The translations under genes and the position numbers were made by a program. From Brevibacillus brevis (GTDB taxonomy: Bacteria > Bacillota > Bacilli > Brevibacillales > Brevibacillaceae): a stretch of 64,000 nt of DNA. The notes beneath the pieces are model-generated. The model was not told where the DNA came from. It ran no database searches and saw only the letters and a program-made list of their open reading frames with translations. Where the stretch lies: the NCBI RefSeq assembly GCF_001039275.2, contig NZ_CP030117.1, forward strand, positions 2,604,001-2,668,000. The letters are read 5' to 3'. Positions 8,682-39,354 of this stretch are shown one piece after another (positions within the stretch are counted from its first letter, which is position 1; each line of letters opens with the position of its first letter).

Positions 8682-8805
8682 GTGTTTGCTGGCAACTTTG
8701 GCAAATCAGGGTGAAACAATTTTGTAGACACGGTGCCAAATAGGGAAATGGATGAATATCCTACAAAAGTGATACGGGAATGAAATCAGGAGGCAAGGAG
8801 ACCCT

Positions 8806-11631
8806 ATGGCCAATGTGAACCGGCGAAAAGCTAACAAAAGTCTGAGTAAAACCTTTAGGCAGACCATGAACGAGTTACCGCTCTCATATACATCATCACC
8901 TGATCGGGAGTGGATGGAAGACCTCGAATTAAATCTGCTTGAAAGTAATTTGGAGAGCACTCACAGAATACCTCCCCTCTCTGCTGCCACACCGAAAGAG
9001 CAACAAAAACCGATTCCCAAAGTACCCAAGCAGGACCTATCCTCCAAACAGGACTCGTTTTCCAAGCAGGATACATCTTCCAAACAGGACTCGTTTTCCA
9101 GACAGGATTTGACTTCCAGACAGAATTCAATTTCCAGACAGGACCCAACTTCCAAGCAGGACTCAACTTCCAAACAGGAGGCATCTTCCAAACAAAACGC
9201 ATCTTCTAAACAAAACGGATCCTCCAAACAAAGCTCAACTGCCAATCCGAACTTTTATTCGAAGGTCATTAAAGATCGCAATGATGATCGTGTCCAATCG
9301 TTTGTCTATACAGACGACTTGACAGATCAATCGGTGACAACTGAAAAAATTGCGAACCGTGCCATTGACGCGTCCAAGATTAAGCAAGGCGCCGTGGATA
9401 ATTCGATTTTGAAGGATTATGCGGTGGACAGCAGTAAACTCGCGGACAAGAGCGTAACTTCCACCAAACTCGCACCGCACGCGGTACAAAGGGATCATCT
9501 GGGGCAAGGAATCGTAAGTGGCGAGCATTTGCAGGATTATTCGATTTCTGCGCAAAAATTGATCAACCATAGCATTACGTCGGAGAAGTTAGCTGATAAA
9601 ACCATCGACTCGATGAAATTTGCCGACCACTCGATTCAGAGCAAGCATATTCAGGATCAAGCGATCACGAATGAGTTGCTCCAGGATCAATCGATTACTT
9701 CGGAAAAAATAAAGATGGGGACCATTCAAACAAGTAATCTCGCCAATTATGTGATAAACACAGTGAAGCTTGAGGATGGAGCTGTCACAGGCGATAAATT
9801 ACGCGATGGAGCAGTAACTTCCACGAAGATAGACGAAGATGCAATTGAATCTCAGCATATTCGTGAAGGCTCCATTTACCACCATCATCTCACGGAAGAG
9901 CTAATAGATGGCAGTAACATTAGCGCTGGCAGCATCACGGATCATCACATTGCATTTCAGGCCATTTATAGCCAGCATTTACATCCAGAAGCGGTGACCA
10001 GTGATAAAGTGGGGCCATATGCGATATTGACTGAGCATTTGGACAACAACAGTGTCACGTCAGAAAAGCTCGCCAAAGAATCAATCGGCAGCACACATTT
10101 ACAAGTTGGCAGTGTCCTATCGAGTCACTTGCAAGACGGGATGCTAACGGCTAAAAAAATCGGTGATCAGCAGATTACCACAGCCAAGATAGCTGATAAG
10201 GCTATCACTACCGACAAATTGGCGAACAGGAGTGTAGGAGAGCAACACTTGCTCGATGAGAGTGTGAGTTCACGACATCTGATTGACGGGACCATTCGCT
10301 CAGAAAAGCTGGCAAGAAGATCTGTGGAAGAACAGCATTTAACTGACAGAATCATTGGGGGCAATCATCTACGCGAGTACATCATCCAGACCCAGCATCT
10401 GCATGACCACTTGGTGACCACATCAAAATTGGCGCCGGAATCTGTTTCCACAGACAAAATTTCAGATTTAAGCATTACGACAAGCAAACTTGGAGATGCC
10501 GTGATCACAGCGCCCAAAATAGCTAAAGATGCGATCAAGACACGCCATCTGGGCAGATCATCCGTCACGGGGGAAAAAATTGCGGAAAAAGCAATTTCCT
10601 CTACACATCTCAACAGTCACATCATTCAGGCAGACCATCTCCAAGGTAACTCCATTTCCAAGGAAAAATTACAGGACGGCAGTGTCACTCGAGATAAAAT
10701 AGCCGATCAGAGCATTGATGCGAGTAAGCTGGATAGCCATTCTGTTCATGGAGCTCATGTCATAAAAGGCAGCTTGGATGGAACGCACATTAAGGAAGGA
10801 ACGCTCAAAGGGAATCATCTTATCAGCAAGAGCATAACAGAACAGCATCTGCAAAACCGGATTATTACGCAGGAAAAACTGGCAGAGGACTCCGTGACCG
10901 GTTCTAAAATTGCGTCCAAAGCTGTCACTACGCATCACATTGCGGATCAGTCCATTAGCGCTGAGAAGATGACCTTTCCCGTAATTGAGACGCATAATCA
11001 CATAGGAGTAACCTTGCAACAATTCGGTTTCGTCCCCTTCAGACTTTCTGCCACTAGCAAGTCTACAGATGTGATCGTTCGATTGCCACAACCTTATGCG
11101 GATACACATTATTGTATGGTCGCGATGACAAATCAACCGGGGATATATACGTCGCTCAAATACACGAAAAGGACTTCAGCGATGATCACCGTATTTCGCA
11201 ATCAAGAGGGGCAGGAAGCGACTGGAGTGATTCACTGGATCGGGATTGGAGTAAAAGGAGTAGATGTCCCACACGAAATGCTGGAATGGTCAACAGAGAT
11301 GGGACAACTGGAGGCAGAAGAAGTCGAGGAAGATCAAAGTGACGAAGATCACGACTTTGAAACGGAAGACATGGATGATGAAGATACGTATGATGAAGAC
11401 GTGGAAGTGGAGGACGTAGAAGACGAAGATATGGATGATGAAGACGCGGAAGATGGGGACATGGAAGACGAGGATACGGATGACGAAGACATGGAAGATG
11501 AGTACACCGACGAGGAAGACATGGAAGATCACGACATGGATGAATATGAAGAGGAAGAAGACACGGATGAAAGTGATTTCGAACAAGATTATGAAAGTAG
11601 TGAAGAATACGATATCGAGAACGATAAATAA
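8806..11631 (+). CDS. Three-period repeat protein with WIAG-like domain and acidic tail; probable surface fibre
   Basis: A 941-residue protein without signal peptide or membrane span. Layout: a basic start (1-75); eleven hexapeptides of form xSSKQD (about 78-143); a linker; 55 uninterrupted decapeptides (176-722) such as SITSEKLADK or SIGSTHLQVG; a globular domain (723-830) containing GVIHWIGIGVKG, resembling the C-terminal WIAG-tail domain known from Brevibacillus/Paenibacillus repeat proteins; and a strongly acidic tail of about 105 residues with a five-residue period. Such decads are typical of beta-helical, often trimeric, fibres. The ATG follows AGGAGG and AAGGAG. The absence of an export signal plus the coat-glycan operon downstream suggests a spore-surface fibre assembled from the mother cell (inference). 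Confidence 0.85.
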   Translation: MANVNRRKANKSLSKTFRQTMNELPLSYTSSPDREWMEDLELNLLESNLESTHRIPPLSAATPKEQQKPIPKVPKQDLSSKQDSFSKQDTSSKQDSFSRQDLTSRQNSISRQDPTSKQDSTSKQEASSKQNASSKQNGSSKQSSTANPNFYSKVIKDRNDDRVQSFVYTDDLTDQSVTTEKIANRAIDASKIKQGAVDNSILKDYAVDSSKLADKSVTSTKLAPHAVQRDHLGQGIVSGEHLQDYSISAQKLINHSITSEKLADKTIDSMKFADHSIQSKHIQDQAITNELLQDQSITSEKIKMGTIQTSNLANYVINTVKLEDGAVTGDKLRDGAVTSTKIDEDAIESQHIREGSIYHHHLTEELIDGSNISAGSITDHHIAFQAIYSQHLHPEAVTSDKVGPYAILTEHLDNNSVTSEKLAKESIGSTHLQVGSVLSSHLQDGMLTAKKIGDQQITTAKIADKAITTDKLANRSVGEQHLLDESVSSRHLIDGTIRSEKLARRSVEEQHLTDRIIGGNHLREYIIQTQHLHDHLVTTSKLAPESVSTDKISDLSITTSKLGDAVITAPKIAKDAIKTRHLGRSSVTGEKIAEKAISSTHLNSHIIQADHLQGNSISKEKLQDGSVTRDKIADQSIDASKLDSHSVHGAHVIKGSLDGTHIKEGTLKGNHLISKSITEQHLQNRIITQEKLAEDSVTGSKIASKAVTTHHIADQSISAEKMTFPVIETHNHIGVTLQQFGFVPFRLSATSKSTDVIVRLPQPYADTHYCMVAMTNQPGIYTSLKYTKRTSAMITVFRNQEGQEATGVIHWIGIGVKGVDVPHEMLEWSTEMGQLEAEEVEEDQSDEDHDFETEDMDDEDTYDEDVEVEDVEDEDMDDEDAEDGDMEDEDTDDEDMEDEYTDEEDMEDHDMDEYEEEEDTDESDFEQDYESSEEYDIENDK
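9037..9234 (+). repeat. Eleven 18-bp (hexapeptide) repeats
   Basis: Eleven contiguous 18-bp units encode the pattern x-[ST]-S-[KR]-Q-[DNE], for example LSSKQD, SFSRQD, ASSKQN. The DNA copies are also similar (TCCAAACAGGAC core), which points to tandem duplication and slippage. The segment is hydrophilic and probably disordered. Confidence 0.9.
9331..10971 (+). repeat. Fifty-five decapeptide repeats (30-bp period)
   Basis: The frame divides into 54 full decads and a last seven-residue unit with no insertion or deletion. Position 2 is Val, Ile or Leu in all units; position 7 is hydrophobic in all; position 6 is Lys (28) or His (23), with four exceptions. DNA identity between units is low, so the array is old and held by selection on the protein. 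Confidence 0.93.
11365..11544 (+). repeat. Twelve 15-bp acidic pentapeptide repeats
   Basis: Twelve units like EDMDD, EDTYD, EDVED, EDMED in the C-terminal tail. DNA copies share GAAGACATGGA-type cores, indicating recent tandem growth. The net charge is extremely negative. Confidence 0.85.
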
Positions 11632-13968: not shown

Positions 13969-13986
13969 CTATGTCACCGTACACGT

Positions 13987-14014
13987 ACCCATTTTCCTTG
14001 ACTGTCATAACATA
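13987..14014 (+). promoter_or_regulatory. Sigma-K-like (late mother-cell) promoter
   Basis: AC at 13987-13988, a 17-base spacer, then CATAACATA at 14006-14014, an exact fit to the sigma-K -10 form CATAnnnTA. It lies about 35 bases before the first start codon of the glycan operon and right after the dnaD terminator. The short -35 makes chance matches possible; position and gene content support it. Confidence 0.6.
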
Positions 14015-14048: not shown

Positions 14049-14471
14049 GTGGAAAAACGGAAAAAATGGGATCTGTCTCATTGGGTAACGCCAGGTGTGT
14101 TTTCAGGAAGTTATGTCGTAGATGAGGCAGTTCAACGTATTTCAATTGTAAAAGCCAATGAAAAAGAGGAAGAGGAAGTAACGGAAAACGTCCAGGAGTT
14201 GGTCGTAAATACAACAGGTGAGCAGCCGAAGGAACTGGTCTTGGAGCCTACCTTCGAAATTATTATGAGAGAGACCGATGAGGCAGTCGTAGAACAGGTT
14301 CACAAGCTTGAGCAAGAAGTGTTGGTACTGAGAGAGGCGCTGGCTTCGTGGGAAGAAAGGTGGGAGAAGCTTGAAGAGAACCATACAAAACAATTGCAGT
14401 ACTTGTATCAAGTAGTTCTTTCACTGAAAAAGGAGTGGGAGATCGAGCGAAATGAACATCGCAATTATTAG
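14049..14471 (+). CDS. Coiled-coil protein at head of glycan operon, unknown function
   Basis: A 140-residue acidic protein with no signal peptide or membrane span. Residues 1-40 contain aromatic and small residues (WDLSHWVTPGVFSGSYVVDE); residues 78-135 form a long heptad-like coiled coil (EQVHKLEQEVLVLREAL and on). GTG start with AGGAGG eight bases upstream. Its end overlaps the next gene by 20 bases, which indicates tight coupling with the first glycosyltransferase. Not recognised; a scaffold or coat-morphogenesis partner is only an inference from context. Confidence 0.75.
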   Translation: MEKRKKWDLSHWVTPGVFSGSYVVDEAVQRISIVKANEKEEEEVTENVQELVVNTTGEQPKELVLEPTFEIIMRETDEAVVEQVHKLEQEVLVLREALASWEERWEKLEENHTKQLQYLYQVVLSLKKEWEIERNEHRNY

Positions 14472-15624
14472 TCCGGGTCCCTTTTCTGTACCACCGGTCA
14501 AAGGAAGCTCGGTCGAACACGATATAGACGAGGTCACAAAGATGATCGAGCCCATGCATAACGTGACGATCTACACTCGTAAATGTGCGACCTATCCAAC
14601 CTCATCCGTGGAAGAAAACCGGCAGTTCATTCGCGTCCCGTATCAAGGGCCTAAGCCTTATTTGCGCCGGATCATTAACCATATCAAAAAGAACAAGCCA
14701 GATGTCATTCTCGTGGAAAACAGACCGATCTATGTTCTCACATTAAAACGCCATTTTCCCAAGATCCCGGTCTTCGTGAATATGCACTCTCACGTGTATG
14801 GATCACAGCCGATCATCAGCAAGGAAAAGATGCGGCGCGCCGTTCGCCTGGCAACAGGTTTTATTACGAACAGTGAATTTTTACGTCAACATTTTATTCG
14901 TTCGTGCAAGATACCTGCAAACAAAATTCATGCGGTTCACCTCGGAGTCGATGTCACTCCTTATCAGGTTGCAAAGATTGCGGTCAAAAAAATGCGTCAA
15001 GAACTCGGATTGAAGCCAGATGATCGCGTCTTGTTTTATGCCGGCAGACTCATGCGGGGTAAAGGGGTGCATGTGCTGATTAAAGCCTTTCGTCAGGTGA
15101 GCAAACAAGATCCGAAAGCTAAACTCGTCATTGTGGGTGGCACGGGATACGGCAGTAATCGCCTGAATCCGTACGTTCGTGAGCTCAAGAGACTTGCGAA
15201 GCCTTTGGGTGAAAAGGTGCGTTTCGTCAATTTCGTACCATCCGCAAAAATGCCGCTTTACTACCAAATTGGGGATGTCGTGGCGACACCATCCGTTTGG
15301 AAAGAAGCGTTTTGCCGTGTCAATTTAGAGGCAATGGCTTCCGGAAAGCCCGTCATTTCCACTCCACGTGGCGGCATTCGTGAAGTCGTTGCCCACGAGA
15401 AAAGTGGCTTTATCATTCCGCCAAAAGATTGGAAAAAAGGATTGCCTGCTGTCTGGGAACTGTTGTGGAGTTCACCCGCCGTCCGGAATGAAATGGGCAA
15501 ACAGGCTCTGCAACGAGCTAAGTTTTTTTCTTGGTACGCAACTGCGCAAGGCTATCTGAACGTGTTTGAAACAGTTGTTCCAACGCGGAGTGAAGAGAAA
15601 CAACCGCTTTTAAAAACAGGTTAA
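14452..15624 (+). CDS. GT4 glycosyltransferase, CotSA/YtcC-like
   Basis: A 390-residue GT-B fold glycosyltransferase of family GT4. The N-terminal domain starts MNIAIISPGPFSVPPVKGSSVE, the acceptor-side glycine loop; the C-terminal domain has LFYAGRLMRGKGVHVLI and the EX7E donor site in EAFCRVNLEAMASGKPVIS. Overall form resembles CotSA/YtcC of B. subtilis, spore-coat proteins that decorate or build spore surface glycan. Its ATG lies inside the end of the upstream gene. Donor sugar unknown; the operon's UDP-glucose dehydrogenase suggests a UDP-uronate or a derived sugar. Confidence 0.85.
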   Translation: MNIAIISPGPFSVPPVKGSSVEHDIDEVTKMIEPMHNVTIYTRKCATYPTSSVEENRQFIRVPYQGPKPYLRRIINHIKKNKPDVILVENRPIYVLTLKRHFPKIPVFVNMHSHVYGSQPIISKEKMRRAVRLATGFITNSEFLRQHFIRSCKIPANKIHAVHLGVDVTPYQVAKIAVKKMRQELGLKPDDRVLFYAGRLMRGKGVHVLIKAFRQVSKQDPKAKLVIVGGTGYGSNRLNPYVRELKRLAKPLGEKVRFVNFVPSAKMPLYYQIGDVVATPSVWKEAFCRVNLEAMASGKPVISTPRGGIREVVAHEKSGFIIPPKDWKKGLPAVWELLWSSPAVRNEMGKQALQRAKFFSWYATAQGYLNVFETVVPTRSEEKQPLLKTG

Positions 15625-15746
15625 TTCGAATGGAACGGATGTAGGTGGTTGCCTTTTCTTGCGCCAATGTGGACGTCTGCCCTGTCCAGCTATTCAGATA
15701 CGCATACCTTATAAGTATCGCAGAGCACAACTGGGGAGTGATACTT

Positions 15747-16793
15747 GTGAAAGGGTTAATCTTGTGTGCTGGACGTGGGACGCGACTGCACCCCTTTTCC
15801 TATTCGCAACCGAAAACCCTCCTCCCTGTGGCCAATCACCCGGTCTTACACTACTGCATTCGCAAACTGCGTGAAGTGGGCATTCAGGACATTGGCATCG
15901 TGATACATCCTTCTCAAGTACAGATTCCTCCCATGGTGGGCGATGGTAGTCAATTCGGGGCTACCATTACGTTTATCAGGCAGGAGGTACCACTGGGAAT
16001 TGCCCATGCTGTCCAGCTAGCGCAACCGTTTTTGCAAGACGAACCGTTTATCTTGCTACTAGGTGATAATTTGTTAATGGATTCGCTTCACGGGCTTACA
16101 AAAGCGTTTACGAAGGGAAAATCTGACGGTGTCGTGATGCTAAGTAAAGTGGAGAGACCACAGGACTATGGGATCGCAGAAGTACAAAAAGGAAGACTGA
16201 TCTCTGTAGAGGAGAAGCCACGTCAGCCAAAGAGCAATCTGGCGGTTATCGGCGCATACCTGTTTACGCCACCTATTTTTGAGTCGATTGCTAACCTGCA
16301 GCCATCTCCACGAGGCGAACTAGAAATAACGGATGCGATTCAATCGATGATTAATCGCGGATTCAAATTGGCTCACTCCGTCACCAACGGAAAGTATTCG
16401 GATGTGGGAACCATCGATCGCTGGCTGGAGGCCAACCAGTGGATGCTTACGAAGGAGCTAGGCAATCAACATCAAATTGGCAAAGGAACCATTGTGAAAA
16501 ATGCGAAGATTACGGGTCCTGTAAGAATCGGTGAAGATTGTGTGATTGAAAATTGCCAAATAGGACCGTACGTCTCGATCCAAAATGGCGTAAGCTTGAG
16601 AAATTGCTCGTATATCGAAAATAGTATTTTGCTGGAAAACAGCTCGCTGCAAGACATTGCTTGGAAAATAACAAACAGCGTTTTCGGCCGCTCATCGATG
16701 ATGACGGGTCAATCTTCTAACAGTACGGGAGTTTTCATTGTAAGCGACAAATCGTCCATTTGCATTCCGGCTGTCAAGAGGGAGGACGTATGA
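15747..16793 (+). CDS. Sugar-1-phosphate nucleotidyltransferase, long RmlA-like type
   Basis: A 348-residue enzyme that activates a sugar-1-phosphate with NTP. The N-terminal Rossmann-like domain has the signature LILCAGRGTRLHPFS and QPKTLLPVANHP, then LLLGDNLL and EEKPRQPKS. The C-terminal third is a left-handed hexapeptide beta-helix (for example IVKNAKITGPVRIGEDCVIE). This layout is that of the long glucose-1-phosphate thymidylyl/uridylyltransferase group; B. subtilis YtdA fills the corresponding place near ytcABC. The GTG at 15747 after GGGGAG is chosen; the upstream open frame lacks a ribosome site. ATGA overlap with the next gene. Confidence 0.85.
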   Translation: MKGLILCAGRGTRLHPFSYSQPKTLLPVANHPVLHYCIRKLREVGIQDIGIVIHPSQVQIPPMVGDGSQFGATITFIRQEVPLGIAHAVQLAQPFLQDEPFILLLGDNLLMDSLHGLTKAFTKGKSDGVVMLSKVERPQDYGIAEVQKGRLISVEEKPRQPKSNLAVIGAYLFTPPIFESIANLQPSPRGELEITDAIQSMINRGFKLAHSVTNGKYSDVGTIDRWLEANQWMLTKELGNQHQIGKGTIVKNAKITGPVRIGEDCVIENCQIGPYVSIQNGVSLRNCSYIENSILLENSSLQDIAWKITNSVFGRSSMMTGQSSNSTGVFIVSDKSSICIPAVKREDV

Positions 16794-17593
16794 ATCCGAC
16801 CTTTACTGTAGTCATTCCGACATACAATCGAGCCAAGTTTATTCGCAAAGCCATCAACAGCGTTTTGAATCAAACCTCAAAAGATTGGAAGCTGTTGATC
16901 ATTGACGATGCGTCCACCGATCACACCAGAAGTAAAATTGAAAAATATATGTACCACCCAAACATTCTGTATCATCGAATGGAAAAAAATTCTGGCATCG
17001 GCAAAGTGATGAATCAGGCATTGTCAATGGTGGATACCCCTTATCTCGTACAACTCGACTCCGATGACTGGTTACCGAAACGAACGCTGGCAGTGATCAA
17101 AAAGTACATTCACAAAAGCAAGAAAAGCACGGCTATCTTCTACGGGAACATGAACATCTGGAAAGTTAAGCGCGGAAAGTATACCAAGACGATTAAGGTG
17201 AAACACAAGACCTTTCATAACAAATACCAGTTTTTGAAATACAATCGCTGGATGGTCTCTCCACGCTGCTATCGCGTAGAAGCTCTGCATCAAGTGGGTG
17301 GTTGGGATACCTCGGATCGATACGAGGGAAGGATTATGGAGGATCGGCGAATCATTTTGCGGTTAATTGAAAAGTATCCAGTGAGATACATCAACAAAAT
17401 TCTTTACAACCGGACGAAGCATAAAGGTCAGCTCACGGACAGCAAGATGAAGTTTCGCCGTAATTATTTGCGAAAAAAAACATTCAAATATTATCTGAAA
17501 AGGTGGGGCAAGAAGTACAAGGCCATCTATGGTTACAAAAACGGTTATTTAGTCATTAAAAGGCTGAAGAAAGTGAGGCGTCGGAGACGATGA
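16790..17593 (+). CDS. GT2 family glycosyltransferase
   Basis: A 267-residue GT-A fold enzyme. FTVVIPTYNRAKFIRKAI starts the fold, LLIIDDASTDHT binds the nucleotide, VQLDSDD is the DxD metal site and EDRRIILRL carries the catalytic-base region. The C-terminal 70 residues are very rich in Lys/Arg and aromatic residues, suggesting peripheral membrane or polyanion contact. ATG 16790 overlaps the upstream stop (ATGA) and follows GGAGG. The downstream epimerase gene also overlaps by four bases. Confidence 0.85.
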   Translation: MNPTFTVVIPTYNRAKFIRKAINSVLNQTSKDWKLLIIDDASTDHTRSKIEKYMYHPNILYHRMEKNSGIGKVMNQALSMVDTPYLVQLDSDDWLPKRTLAVIKKYIHKSKKSTAIFYGNMNIWKVKRGKYTKTIKVKHKTFHNKYQFLKYNRWMVSPRCYRVEALHQVGGWDTSDRYEGRIMEDRRIILRLIEKYPVRYINKILYNRTKHKGQLTDSKMKFRRNYLRKKTFKYYLKRWGKKYKAIYGYKNGYLVIKRLKKVRRRRR

Positions 17594-18540
17594 AGAAAGC
17601 TCTTGTCACCGGCTGTGCAGGCTTTATTGGGTCTCATTTGACACAGCGCTTGTTGAACGATGGCGTGACAGTCATCGGGATAGACGGTTTCATCGATAAC
17701 TACGATGTTGCTGCGAAACTGCGTAATCTGGCCGAAATAGGAAAACATCCTGCCTTCACCTTCCACTCTACAACACTTCAGACTGGGCGTTGGGACATTT
17801 GGCTCGAGAACGTCGACGCTGTTTTCCATCTCGCTGCCTTGCCGGGCGTAAGAAATAGCTGGGGAAAGTCTTTTGCCGATTATGTTAGCCATAATATTTT
17901 GGCTACACAAGAATTGCTGGAGGCTTGCTTGCAAAGACCGAAGCCACCTGTCATCGTGGTCTCGTCCTCTTCCTCGGTTTACGGGACGATGCAAGGGACC
18001 GTAACCAATGAAACTGCGCCTCTTCGCCCGGTTTCCCCTTATGGTGTGACCAAGGAAGCGATGGAACAAATCTGCTCGGTTTATGTAAAAGCTTATGGAC
18101 TCCCGGTTAGCATGCTTCGCTACTTTACGGTATACGGTCCCAGACAGCGTCCCGATATGGCTTTTCATCGTTTCTTTCGTCAAATGATGAAAGGCGAGCA
18201 GGTCATCATCTATGGGGATGGCCAGCAATCCAGAGACTTTACGTATGTGACAGACGCGGTAGAGGCGAATCTGCTCGCTGCACAGCATGCTGTTCCCGGT
18301 GACATTTTTAATGTGGGGGGAGACCGGGAAATCAAGCTCATCGATGTGCTATCCATCATGGGCACGTTAATGAATCTGACCCCTCGCATTACGTTTCAAA
18401 ATGGGCCGGCAGGTGACTCCTTACGAACCTGTGCGGATATCCAATTTGCCCAACAACGCTTGGGATACAAACCAAAAGTGACGCTAGAAGAGGGACTTCG
18501 CCTTCAATTAGAAGAGATTCGTTCTCAATCGAAGGGGTAA
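17590..18540 (+). CDS. NAD-dependent sugar-nucleotide epimerase (YtcB-like)
   Basis: A 316-residue extended short-chain dehydrogenase. NAD motif VTGCAGFIGSH; catalytic Ser in VVSSSSSVYG and YxxxK in YGVTK; the substrate region RYFTVYGPRQRPDMA is typical of UDP-glucuronate/UDP-glucose 4-epimerases. With UDP-glucose dehydrogenase at the end of the operon, UDP-glucuronate to UDP-galacturonate conversion is a reasonable guess, as for the ytcA-ytcB pair in B. subtilis. ATGA overlap with the GT2 gene. Confidence 0.82.
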   Translation: MKKALVTGCAGFIGSHLTQRLLNDGVTVIGIDGFIDNYDVAAKLRNLAEIGKHPAFTFHSTTLQTGRWDIWLENVDAVFHLAALPGVRNSWGKSFADYVSHNILATQELLEACLQRPKPPVIVVSSSSSVYGTMQGTVTNETAPLRPVSPYGVTKEAMEQICSVYVKAYGLPVSMLRYFTVYGPRQRPDMAFHRFFRQMMKGEQVIIYGDGQQSRDFTYVTDAVEANLLAAQHAVPGDIFNVGGDREIKLIDVLSIMGTLMNLTPRITFQNGPAGDSLRTCADIQFAQQRLGYKPKVTLEEGLRLQLEEIRSQSKG

Positions 18541-18566
18541 CACCCGTCATCAAGGAGGCCAGTTGC

Positions 18567-19640
18567 ATGCATCGGGTCCTCGTTTATCGCAGAAAGTTTC
18601 TTCCCAAGAGTGAAACATTTATTTATGAGCAATTGCTTGGACATCAAGTGGTCAAACCCGTGGTGTTGACCCGACAGCGAGCCTTTAACCGAAAACAATT
18701 TCCTTATTCGCCGGTCTATGTGCGCAAGCATATGGCCGGCCTCTCCACTTGGCTGCGACGTAAAAAAATTAAATGCCTGCATGCCCGTTTTGGTCCTGCT
18801 GGATTAGAATTGCTTCCTTATGCACAAAAAAGCAAGCTCCCCCTGATTACTTCCTTTCACGGCTTTGATGCCACCAAGCGTGTCAAAGAAAATCCATTGT
18901 ACAGACGGTCCCTTTCGCGTCTCTTTCGAAAGGGCCATGCGTTTACCGTCGTGAGCAATCACATGAGAAAGCGATTGATTCATCTGGGCTGTCCCCCATC
19001 TAAAATTACCCTTATCCGCTCAGGAATTGATTTGCGCAAATTTCCCATGCTGCCGCCACAGCCGGTGGAAAATGGGGAGTACCGATTGCTAAGCGTAGGG
19101 AGACTGACTGAAAAAAAGGGTATGGATACGTTAATTAAGGCGTTTACCCATGTGCATAAAAAACATCCCAAGGCAAAGTTAATCATCGTCGGCGATGGAG
19201 AAGAAAAAAAGAAACTCAAACGACTGATCAAGAAAAATAGGTTAGGCACACAAGTCGTGCTCAAAGGGGCTCTGCCACATCGTGAAGTCCAGCGTGAACT
19301 GGCCAAGTGCCATTTGTTCATCATCGCATGCAAGACAGCGAGAAATGGCAACCAGGAGGGGATTCCTAATGTCATCATGGAAGCGATGGCTAGCGGACGC
19401 CCTGTCATTTCCACCTATCACGCGGGAATCCCTGAGCTGGTTGAACACAAAGTGACTGGATATCTGGTTCCGGAGAAATCACCGACTGCGCTCGGGAAAA
19501 TGATAAACCGTGTACTAACAGAAAGTCACGAGTGGGCACAGATCACGACGGAGGCTCGGCTGAAAGTAGAAAAAAACCACGATATCCACCAGCAACGGAT
19601 GAGACTAGAAGAGCTTTATTTGCGTGTGTCGAAAAAATGA
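18567..19640 (+). CDS. GT4 family glycosyltransferase
   Basis: A 357-residue GT-B glycosyltransferase. It opens with VLVYRRKFLPKSETFIYEQL, the stretch typical of colanic-acid-type GT4 enzymes, followed by LITSFHGFDA, LLSVGRLTEKKGMDTLIKA and the EX7E site EGIPNVIMEAMASGRPVIS. ATG 18567 follows AAGGAGG. It lies 26 bases after the epimerase and 12 bases before ugd, within the same operon. Sugar specificity unknown. Confidence 0.86.
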   Translation: MHRVLVYRRKFLPKSETFIYEQLLGHQVVKPVVLTRQRAFNRKQFPYSPVYVRKHMAGLSTWLRRKKIKCLHARFGPAGLELLPYAQKSKLPLITSFHGFDATKRVKENPLYRRSLSRLFRKGHAFTVVSNHMRKRLIHLGCPPSKITLIRSGIDLRKFPMLPPQPVENGEYRLLSVGRLTEKKGMDTLIKAFTHVHKKHPKAKLIIVGDGEEKKKLKRLIKKNRLGTQVVLKGALPHREVQRELAKCHLFIIACKTARNGNQEGIPNVIMEAMASGRPVISTYHAGIPELVEHKVTGYLVPEKSPTALGKMINRVLTESHEWAQITTEARLKVEKNHDIHQQRMRLEELYLRVSKK

Positions 19641-19652
19641 TGAGGTGAAGGA

Positions 19653-20939
19653 ATGAAAGTTGCCGTTATTGGGACCGGCTACGTAGGTTTGACGACTGCA
19701 GTTTCCCTAGCCATGAACGATCATCAGGTGACGGGTATTGACCTCGTTGCATCCAAAGTAGAAAAACTGCGCCAAGGGATCTCGCCGATTTACGAGCCGG
19801 GCTTAGAAGAGGCATTGAAAAAAGTATTGGATGATGGCGCACTTGCTTTTTATACAAATTTGACAGAGGCGAAGGACGCAGAGGTTTTTTTCATTTGTGT
19901 GGGGACACCTGAAGCAGCAGACGGCACAGCCGATTTAACGTATTTACTCGGGGCTGTTTCTGACATTCACAAGGTCCATTTGCTCGCACCGCAAGAACGC
20001 ATCGTGGTAATCAAGAGTACCGTACCAGTCGGAACTGGCGAAAAAGTAGCGGGGATGCTGGCTGGCTGCCAAGGAGTATCTGTTGCATCCAACCCGGAGT
20101 TTTTACGGGAAGGGAGTGCATTATTGGACGCATTGGAGCCTTCGCGAATCGTCATTGGTGTAGACAATTCTCAGGCAGCCGCTCGCATGGAGGAACTGTA
20201 CAACGGCGTGAAGGCACCGCGCGTCATCACCACCAGGGCTAATGCGGAGCTGATCAAATACGCTTCGAATGCATTTTTGGCAACCCGAATCTCCTTCATG
20301 AATGAGCTAGCACGGTTAAGTACCGCGCTCGGGACGGATATCGTGACGATCTCGCGAGGAATGGGACTGGACAGCCGAATCGGTCCGCAATTTTTACGGG
20401 CAGGAGTAGGCTATGGCGGCTCCTGTTTTCCGAAGGATACAATTGCGTTATTGCAGCTTGCAGCAGAGCGCAATATTCACTTAAGTATTTTGGATAAAGT
20501 GCGAGAGGTGAATGCTACACAGCCTGGTTGGTTTTTGGAGCAGTTGTGCTTGCAGCTCCCTGATCTGACAGGCAAACAAATTGCTATTCTGGGGCTGACG
20601 TTTAAACCGGATACGGATGACATCCGCGAAGCGCCATCGCTCAAATTGATTGAAATACTCCTGCACAAAGGTGCCATCGTGAAGGCGTTCGATCCGATTG
20701 GAGCACCCTGTGTCAGCAAGCAGTTTCCACAGATCACGTACACGCAATCCGCGGCAGAAGCATGCGAGGGAGCACACGCCGCATTATTGGTTACAGAATG
20801 GGAACCGTGTGTCCAATTGAATTGGAAACAGGTTTATCAAAGCATGGCACAGCCGCTCTTGCTAGACGGACGAAATGCCTGGCCGAACCAGGAGGTAAAG
20901 GAAGCAGGTTTTCATTATATTGGAGTAGGGAGAAGCTGA
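19653..20939 (+). CDS. ugd: UDP-glucose 6-dehydrogenase (YtcA/TuaD-like)
   Basis: A 428-residue enzyme that oxidises UDP-glucose to UDP-glucuronate with two NAD+. NAD site VAVIGTGYVGL at the N-terminus, KSTVPVGTG, the active-site Cys in GYGGSCFPKD, and the C-terminal UDP-binding part with LGLTFKPDTDDIREAPS. Length and motifs are complete. It is the last gene of the glycan operon; the corresponding B. subtilis gene in the ytc group is ytcA. ATG preceded by GAGGTGAAGGA. A strong terminator starts at its stop. Confidence 0.93.
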   Translation: MKVAVIGTGYVGLTTAVSLAMNDHQVTGIDLVASKVEKLRQGISPIYEPGLEEALKKVLDDGALAFYTNLTEAKDAEVFFICVGTPEAADGTADLTYLLGAVSDIHKVHLLAPQERIVVIKSTVPVGTGEKVAGMLAGCQGVSVASNPEFLREGSALLDALEPSRIVIGVDNSQAAARMEELYNGVKAPRVITTRANAELIKYASNAFLATRISFMNELARLSTALGTDIVTISRGMGLDSRIGPQFLRAGVGYGGSCFPKDTIALLQLAAERNIHLSILDKVREVNATQPGWFLEQLCLQLPDLTGKQIAILGLTFKPDTDDIREAPSLKLIEILLHKGAIVKAFDPIGAPCVSKQFPQITYTQSAAEACEGAHAALLVTEWEPCVQLNWKQVYQSMAQPLLLDGRNAWPNQEVKEAGFHYIGVGRS

Positions 20940-38235: not shown

Positions 38236-39354
38236 TTGAAACGACCCATTATCGGCATCTTGACTTGGCGGGAAGGCAAACGCTTTGCAGAGCCAACCTA
38301 TTTTCGGCGACTACTTAAGGCTGGACAAGAACTAGGCTGTACCGTTTTCTTGTTTTCCCCAAATGATGTGCTTGCGGCCGGCAAGAAGGTGAGAGGGTAT
38401 ATTCCGGGGAGCAATGGCGGCTGGCAAGCAAGGATATTTGACCGTCCAGACGCTGTTTTCGACCGATACCGCTATACACCGACACAAGCATTTAAGAACT
38501 ATGTGGCCTTTCGACGGACGAGTAATTTTTTGTACGCAAACAATCGCTTGGCAAACAAATGGCGTGTACATGAGGTGCTGCATCGGGACCCCAGAATGCA
38601 TCGCTGGCTTCCGGAAACCCACCTCTATAACCGCCAAAGCCTGGTCAACATGCTAAGTAAGCATCCATTGCTCTACGTAAAGCCACTCAATGGAACAGGA
38701 GGACGAAACATCTTGTCCATTGAAAAGCGTGGCGACGAACTGAGACTGCTCGGTCGTAATAAACAAAGGGCAAAAGTATCCACAGTAGTAAGAGACAAAG
38801 CCGCTGCCCAGAGATGGGTAGATCGTTGGACGAGACAGGAGAAATACATCGTTCAGCAAGGGCTTCGTTTGCAGCTGGTTCCTTCGCGAGCAGTAGACAT
38901 GCGCCTCTTGATTCAAAAGAATGGGCAAGGTGAATGGGGTATCACAGGTCATGGAATTCGCGTGGGTCCAGAACGCAGTGCCACCTCTAATCTGCATGGT
39001 GGCGGAAAAGCTATCCCTGTATCGGAATTTCTCCGACCGAGGTTTGGGGAGGAACGCACTGCGCAGATCGTGCGTGATTGCGAACAGCTCGCTTTTCAAA
39101 CAGCGGAAACACTCGAGGATCATTTTGGACGGATGGTTGAATTTGGGCTGGATATTGGCATCGATGTAGATGGTCACGCTTGGCTGATCGAAGTGAATCC
39201 CAAACCAGCTCGGGAAATTTTCCGGGAGATGGGAGCAACGGGGCAGTACAAGAATGCTATTACTCGCCCGCTTGAATACGCCATCTACCTTGCAAAAACA
39301 CAGGGACGTGAAGGTCGCGAGCCACTTTTGAAGAGAAAGGTCGCCAGAGGATAA
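38236..39354 (+). CDS. YheC/YheD family ATP-grasp protein, spore-coat associated
   Basis: A 372-residue protein of the YheC/YheD family. N-terminal part IIGILTWREG; the ATP-grasp region has YVKPLNGTGGRNI (the nucleotide loop), MRLLIQKNGQGEWGITG and GLDIGIDVDGHAWLIEVNPKP with metal-binding Glu/Asn. In B. subtilis these proteins are linked to the spore coat; their reaction is unknown, though ATP-grasp enzymes join carboxyl to amino groups. TTG start after GAGAGGGTG. Bounded by a strong terminator downstream. Confidence 0.85.
   Translation: MKRPIIGILTWREGKRFAEPTYFRRLLKAGQELGCTVFLFSPNDVLAAGKKVRGYIPGSNGGWQARIFDRPDAVFDRYRYTPTQAFKNYVAFRRTSNFLYANNRLANKWRVHEVLHRDPRMHRWLPETHLYNRQSLVNMLSKHPLLYVKPLNGTGGRNILSIEKRGDELRLLGRNKQRAKVSTVVRDKAAAQRWVDRWTRQEKYIVQQGLRLQLVPSRAVDMRLLIQKNGQGEWGITGHGIRVGPERSATSNLHGGGKAIPVSEFLRPRFGEERTAQIVRDCEQLAFQTAETLEDHFGRMVEFGLDIGIDVDGHAWLIEVNPKPAREIFREMGATGQYKNAITRPLEYAIYLAKTQGREGREPLLKRKVARG

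Follow-up and report, generated by a model that had tools for sequence, protein, structure and literature searches.

A tail-fibre-like protein with a decapeptide rod and a WIAG-tail domain in Brevibacillus brevis, a candidate spore-surface fibre

The stretch of Brevibacillus brevis DNA analyzed here, called the window, comprises 64,000 nucleotides of a 6.44-Mb contig. On its forward strand lies an open reading frame (8806..11631) with AGGAGGCAAGGAGA ahead of its ATG, and we refer to its 941-residue product as the fibre protein. The protein begins with a basic segment (residues 1-74, 8806..9027), proposed here as an anchor, whose first residues are rich in lysine and arginine (MANVNRRK...) and follow an MA[NKR]xNRRK-type start common to the Brevibacillus orthologs. 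This segment is followed by an array of hexapeptides (residues 75-146, 9028..9243), a rod cap carrying a YTDDL... motif (residues 167-175, 9304..9330), a rod of decapeptides (residues 176-725, 9331..10980), a WIAG-tail domain proposed as the tip (residues 737-815, 11014..11250) and an acidic tail (residues 832-941, 11299..11628). Inspection by eye revealed no export signal in the protein.

The sequence-only reading had described the protein as 11 hexapeptides, 55 unbroken decapeptides, a WIAG-like domain and 12 acidic pentapeptides. The decads do form 55 consecutive in-register units, and the WIAG domain belongs to NCBIfam family NF012201 (101.7 bits, E 1.7e-29, curated cut-off 33 bits). The hexad array is likewise present, although it counts 12 units, the twelfth (KQSSTA) being degenerate. 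For the C-terminus, the acidic character stands, with D or E at 70 of 110 residues, whereas the regular pentad register does not, as the 12 blocks share a mean protein identity of 52% in a loose register. Taking the commonest residue at each position, the decad consensus is S-I-T-S-E-K-L-A-D-G; V, I, L, M or F fills positions 2 and 7 in every one of the 55 units, and 51 of them have K or H at position 6. The cap unit ahead of the decads fits a loose form of the decad pattern and is counted as a 56th unit, and its motif occurs in 54 of the 59 relatives of at least 600 residues. Serine and threonine account for 113 of the 560 residues in the rod.

A hydrophobic residue placed exactly every five positions is also what a monomeric beta-solenoid of the pentapeptide type, with a role inside the cell, would show, and the protein weakly resembles HetL (E 6.7e-4) as well as pentapeptide-type helices of known structure (E 1.8e-5 to 0.6). 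However, what we take to define the pentapeptide fold is a small residue at i-2 relative to each core residue; such a residue occurs in 15/55 and 18/55 units, and no Pfam pentapeptide family was matched at E up to 1. Since such a fold would also leave the spore-gene context described below unexplained, we consider a solenoid of this kind very unlikely.

The repeat arrays appear to differ in age, with old decads and young outer arrays, as the sequence-only reading had suggested. Mean pairwise DNA identity among units is 69% for the hexads and 69% for the acidic pentads as against 40% for the decads, and Tandem Repeats Finder calls both outer arrays and misses the decads. The comparison of repeat numbers among relatives that was called for at the time bears this out. 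Rods were aligned unit by unit, with the cap counted as a unit and shuffled units as control. In eight close relatives, all 56 units aligned gap-free with 9.0-9.7 identities per ten residues (shuffled 4.6-5.5), and the remaining 17 Brevibacillus orthologs gave 5.7-6.9 (shuffled 4.0-4.5). Exactly 56 units were found in 16 of the 25 Brevibacillus orthologs, the others having 48, 48, 50, 57, 64, 66, 66, 69 and 69. Ten rod alignments contain gaps, nine of them at units 47-57, which is the tip-side end, and one (L064) at unit 14. The decads thus correspond one to one throughout the genus, whereas the hexads belong to the nearest clade, where the hexad pattern has 5-12 matches compared with 0 or 1 in other Brevibacillus. 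The start-to-cap distance in the nine proteins of that clade is 149, 155, 161, 167, 173 or 185 residues, i.e., the copy number shifts by six-residue steps.

Outside Brevibacillus, proteins uncut by a contig end or sequence gap carry 47 to 212 decads each, with the exception of three proteins from genus g5. In most of the distant families, unit identity is close to the shuffled level; therefore, we claim a one-to-one correspondence of decads for Brevibacillus and, less firmly, for the family it belongs to. The longest rod was found in L118 (genome G165), where the protein has about 2,384 residues and 212 decads. The three g5 proteins (L081, L111 and L112), whose genes have a synteny like that of the window, are WIAG proteins of about 350-385 residues with the same basic start and no decads, and a charged, probably disordered stretch takes the place of the rod.

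The decad rod is of the kind found in phage tail fibres, as seen from its match to phrog_892 (E 1.2e-91). Since repeats of this kind score easily, this value expresses likeness and not descent. Tail fibres of phages that carry V-T-x-x-K-[LI]-A-D-G-type repeats (phrog_892 and others) and PF21882 tips have a rod built of such decads, as the fibre protein does, and an end domain that may be distantly similar to its own. The Pfam family PF21882 (Gp53-like_C) was matched at E up to 0.5 by 22 of 47 WIAG domains selected from the 67 found, the best at 6.3e-6, and the window's own domain scored 19.2 bits against a cut-off of 24.9. Used as a profile, the WIAG domain had no hit in the PDB at E up to 5, and a search of 72,556 plasmid records found matches in 20, below 60% identity. 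A similar repeat stretch is present in the cyanophage fibre gp28 (8i4m), for which the available part of the report describes the distal fibre as not resolved (PMC10575957). The family NF012201, of which the fibre protein is a member, is named only by its domain; in the literature covered, a single paper mentions the WIAG-tail domain, for an annotated algal-virus tail-fibre gene, in a text whose available part says nothing on spores.

Such likeness raises the question of whether the gene belongs to a phage, or is the remnant of a prophage or a tail-like particle. Besides the phrog_892 score and the Gp53-like_C matches, this origin is favored by the decads matching 105 of 50,697 phage records, all at less than 60% identity. 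Against it, a tblastn search of the same phage records with the WIAG domain at E up to 0.01 gave no match, the gene occurs once per genome in 26 Brevibacillus genomes, and in the class sample discussed below the family is confined to genomes that carry SpoIVA. The gene also keeps a constant chromosomal place in Brevibacillus among housekeeping neighbors. A place in a phage tail module was named at the outset as an observation that would speak against a spore role, and what we found are chromosomal neighbors that are syntenic in Brevibacillus. Unlike phage tail fibres, the gene is chromosomal and conserved across a genus and many spore-former families, and we regard a phage or prophage identity as extremely unlikely. 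The fibre protein would instead work like a tail fibre outside a phage module, and it may share descent with one.

The acidic tail had been proposed as the charged end of the fibre. This did not hold up, as several relatives stop no more than about 10 residues past the WIAG domain; with the tail absent from these proteins, the tip of the fibre is more likely to be the WIAG domain itself. In L103, a different acidic repeat (EQDDDPSADDAK-like) stands behind the WIAG domain. This separate repeat suggests that tails of acidic repeats originated on more than one occasion.

All 26 Brevibacillus genomes, including the one studied here, contain an ortholog of the fibre protein, in one copy each. Among 398 genomes of the class, NF012201 was matched in 109 (108 over the cut-off), representing 40 of 145 genera. 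SpoIVA (TIGR02836) was matched in 269 of the same 398 genomes, and all 109 genomes with the WIAG family fall within these 269, with none among the 129 SpoIVA-negative genomes. The hypergeometric value of this overlap, 2.7e-23, overstates the association because the genomes are related, and the overlap is partly a matter of shared ancestry. The shared content of these genomes is dominated by sporulation genes. As many as 160 of the 269 SpoIVA-positive genomes lack the WIAG family, and the family is therefore dispensable for spore formers. In a sample of the phylum, NF012201 was found in 6 of 398 genomes, from families f1 and f4, and 14 control genomes including Bacillus subtilis gave no match.

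We compared 25 Brevibacillus loci in addition to the window. A gene upstream resembles ftsH, with a similarity below the family cut-off, and is present in 23 of the 25 loci (L123 starts at a contig edge and L119 is without it), and an asnS-like gene lies downstream in 24 (in L066 the contig stops first). We assign the names asnS and dnaD to neighboring genes from their sequences. Further downstream, the window contains seven forward-strand genes (14049-20939) that we treat as a glycan operon. The first encodes a 140-residue product (14049..14471) that belongs to no NCBIfam family and has a sub-threshold Pfam match to a coiled coil. It is followed by a GT4-type glycosyltransferase (14452..15624; PF00534, E 2e-38), a sugar nucleotidyltransferase of the RmlA-long type (15645..16793; TIGR01208 over cut-off, PF00483), a GT2-type glycosyltransferase (16760..17593; PF00535, E 1.6e-30), an NAD-dependent sugar epimerase/dehydratase (17590..18540; PF01370, E 4e-57), a second GT4-type glycosyltransferase (18567..19640; PF00534, E 2.1e-39) and a UDP-glucose/GDP-mannose dehydrogenase (19653..20939; PF03721, E 3.3e-54). 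The first glycosyltransferase of the operon is found downstream in 23 of the 25 loci, the exceptions being L066 (contig edge) and the full-length L068. Family searches of the seven genes detected neither a transporter nor a polymerase, and sugar transfer inside the mother cell would fit an operon composed in this way.

The link between sugar enzymes and WIAG genes is also seen in other surroundings. Relatives of all six operon enzymes adjoin the WIAG gene in L095 (family f27), and three of the enzyme types do so in L118 (f27) and three, with weaker scores, in L115 (f20). Loci of family f4 have a weak nucleotidyltransferase relative near the WIAG gene, and L088 has GT2-type neighbors.

The fibre gene and the operon are each preceded by a promoter-like site of similar layout. 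The site of the fibre gene (8733..8763) reads GTGCC-N16-GAATATCCTA, and that of the operon (13985..14014) reads GTACC-N15-TCATAACATA, the latter being conserved in an alignment of 24 Brevibacillus upstream regions; it starts 2.35 kb past the end of the fibre ORF, in line with the 2.4 kb given in the sequence-only reading. In the aligned upstream regions, the patterns are GTRCC-N16-GAATANNNTA ahead of the fibre gene and GTACC-N15-TCATANNNTA ahead of the operon. We take the consensus of the sigma-K -10 element to be CATANNNTA, from which the -10 of the fibre gene (AATANNNTA) differs by one base and which the -10 of the operon fits. A joint pattern written for both sites occurs in the window at these two places only. 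Among the 26 Brevibacillus, the window being one of them, 24 have it; the figures are 7 of 39 for the other WIAG genes and 2 of 422 for control ORFs, where one of the two is the second WIAG gene of L079. Because the pattern was written after the alignments had been seen, these counts describe the sites and do not test them. For sigma-K promoters, the available part of PMC517825 gives gaps of 14-16 nt, with which both sites agree.

Genome-wide, two stricter sigma-K-type forms gave 8 matches compared with 11 in the reversed control, and an earlier stricter form gave 1 compared with 1, i.e., no excess. One of the eight matches stops 51 nt short of an ORF for which GerE is the top PDB hit (1fse, E 2.1e-34). 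The plain CATANNNTA element precedes 8 of 65 WIAG genes and 15 of 431 control ORFs. The promoter sequences give modest support for sigma-K control. A TGAATA box lies 15-110 nt upstream of 44 of 65 WIAG genes, compared with 18 of 431 control ORFs, and the exact box TGAATATACCTA had a single occurrence per genome in the two genomes searched (control 0). In several families, e.g., at L102, L103, L106, L108 and L110, TGAATATACCTA is located about 40-60 nt before the WIAG start. As a regulatory lead the TGAATA-type box was set aside, as its looser form has 8 places in the B. brevis genome (control 0), of which only that of the WIAG gene is a clear leader.

A sigma-K-like layout and the absence of the family from all SpoIVA-negative genomes in the class sample both argue against a surface protein of growing cells that leaves the cell by a route needing no classical export signal, in which case the sugar enzymes would serve a vegetative glycan. 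In Brevibacillus the fibre gene does lie among vegetative genes, as this alternative would predict, and we consider it improbable.

Outside the home family, neighboring genes point to the spore coat. The comparison covered 58 stretches around WIAG genes, none longer than 20 kb. Among the 29 loci that lie outside the home family, 15, representing 8 of 14 families, contain at least one gene of the spore-coat YheC/YheD ATP-grasp type; the other 14 stretches, several of them contig ends, have none. The upstream row of L101, L102, L103, L106, L107 and L110 contains three or four such genes, and five representatives were confirmed by Pfam. In the 27 genomes counted, the number of YheC/D matches is 6 to 31 per genome, and by a rough estimate, 15 of 29 loci is therefore far beyond chance. 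Additionally, a small gene of cluster C3 recurs in seven loci and a gene of cluster C5 in six; in L110 these encode a GNAT acetyltransferase and a SpoVR protein, respectively. According to the available text of PMC7911427, YheD forms a shell around the B. subtilis spore. The spore association put forward in the sequence-only reading is thereby supported indirectly, through the SpoIVA-only distribution, the YheC/D-type and SpoVR-type neighbors and the promoter-like site of the gene itself.

Coat-type neighbors would equally suit a structural scaffold that remains within the coat, unexposed, and links coat layers through its basic and acidic ends. The two ends of the fibre protein are indeed oppositely charged, and a scaffold needs no signal for exposure. 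However, the acidic end is missing from several relatives, and a long rod with a fibre-tip-like domain next to a glycan operon suggests exposure, so that a buried scaffold is unlikely.

Considering the observed architecture, distribution, neighborhood and similar promoter layouts together, we propose with a probability of about 0.6 that the fibre protein is a spore-surface fibre protein. On this proposal, which is drawn from sequence comparison, the mother cell would make the protein late in sporulation from a sigma-K-type promoter; a product of the mother cell would need no export signal. The K/R-rich N-terminus would dock on the coat or the exosporium. As we infer its orientation and oligomeric state, the decad rod would project outward as a fibre with a length fixed per clade, and the WIAG domain would sit at its outer end as the tip, on the model of a phage tail fibre. 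The neighboring, similarly controlled sugar-enzyme operon might glycosylate the fibre or its surroundings. The outcome would be a hydrophilic hair layer with a function like that of the BclA nap, built on a different rod.

The proposed role and layout resemble those of BclA-type collagen-like nap glycoproteins, which have an N-terminal anchor, a long repeat stalk, a C-terminal domain and sugar genes, and whose stalk length differs between lineages according to the available text of PMC11952670. The stalk here consists of decads in place of Gly-X-Y repeats, and a Pfam search of the fibre protein at E up to 1 returned a single sub-threshold family and no C1q-type domain. Among other spore-surface fibres, F-ENA (DUF4183) endospore appendages are described also from Paenibacillaceae, including Brevibacillus genomes, in the available part of the same source (PMC11952670). 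F-ENA are polymers of small subunits, whereas the fibre protein is one long chain, in which Pfam found no DUF4183 at E up to 1. The fibre protein may, at somewhat less than even odds, represent a third class of spore-surface fibre apart from the collagen-like nap and ENA. Such a class would have a phage-tail-fibre architecture of rod and tip and occur in many families of endospore-forming Bacilli, each clade having a set rod length. Enzymes of a sigma-K-type sugar operon would decorate the fibre, and its gene would adjoin, in several lineages, genes for YheC/D ATP-grasp enzymes that may modify it.

In the literature on spore fibres and on Brevibacillus and Paenibacillus spore proteins, judged by titles and abstract openings and with most subscription journals outside the scope, no paper describes such a protein. 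Spore-coat proteomics of B. laterosporus, in the available part of the report, named four other proteins and no tail-fibre-like one, the bands analyzed being two major ones of 28 and 16 kDa (PMC5335551). If the proposal is true, it provides a named spore-surface component for Brevibacillus, Paenibacillus and relatives that is open to deletion and to tests of adhesion and surface chemistry, as well as an example of cells reusing the design of a tail fibre.

Some minor observations concern individual genomes. In L079 (genome G026), two WIAG genes form a tandem pair; their rods comprise 93 and 48 decads, and their promoter-like sites are similar. The B. brevis genome itself contains 10 YheC/D matches. 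In the window, a YheC/D-type ATP-grasp gene (PF14398, E 1.4e-85) is located at 38236-39354, at a distance of 27 kb on the downstream side of the fibre gene. Elsewhere in the same genome, on the reverse strand of C1 (1398980-1399009, L152), one of the eight matches to the stricter sigma-K-like forms is located near a run of four YheC/D matches on the same strand.
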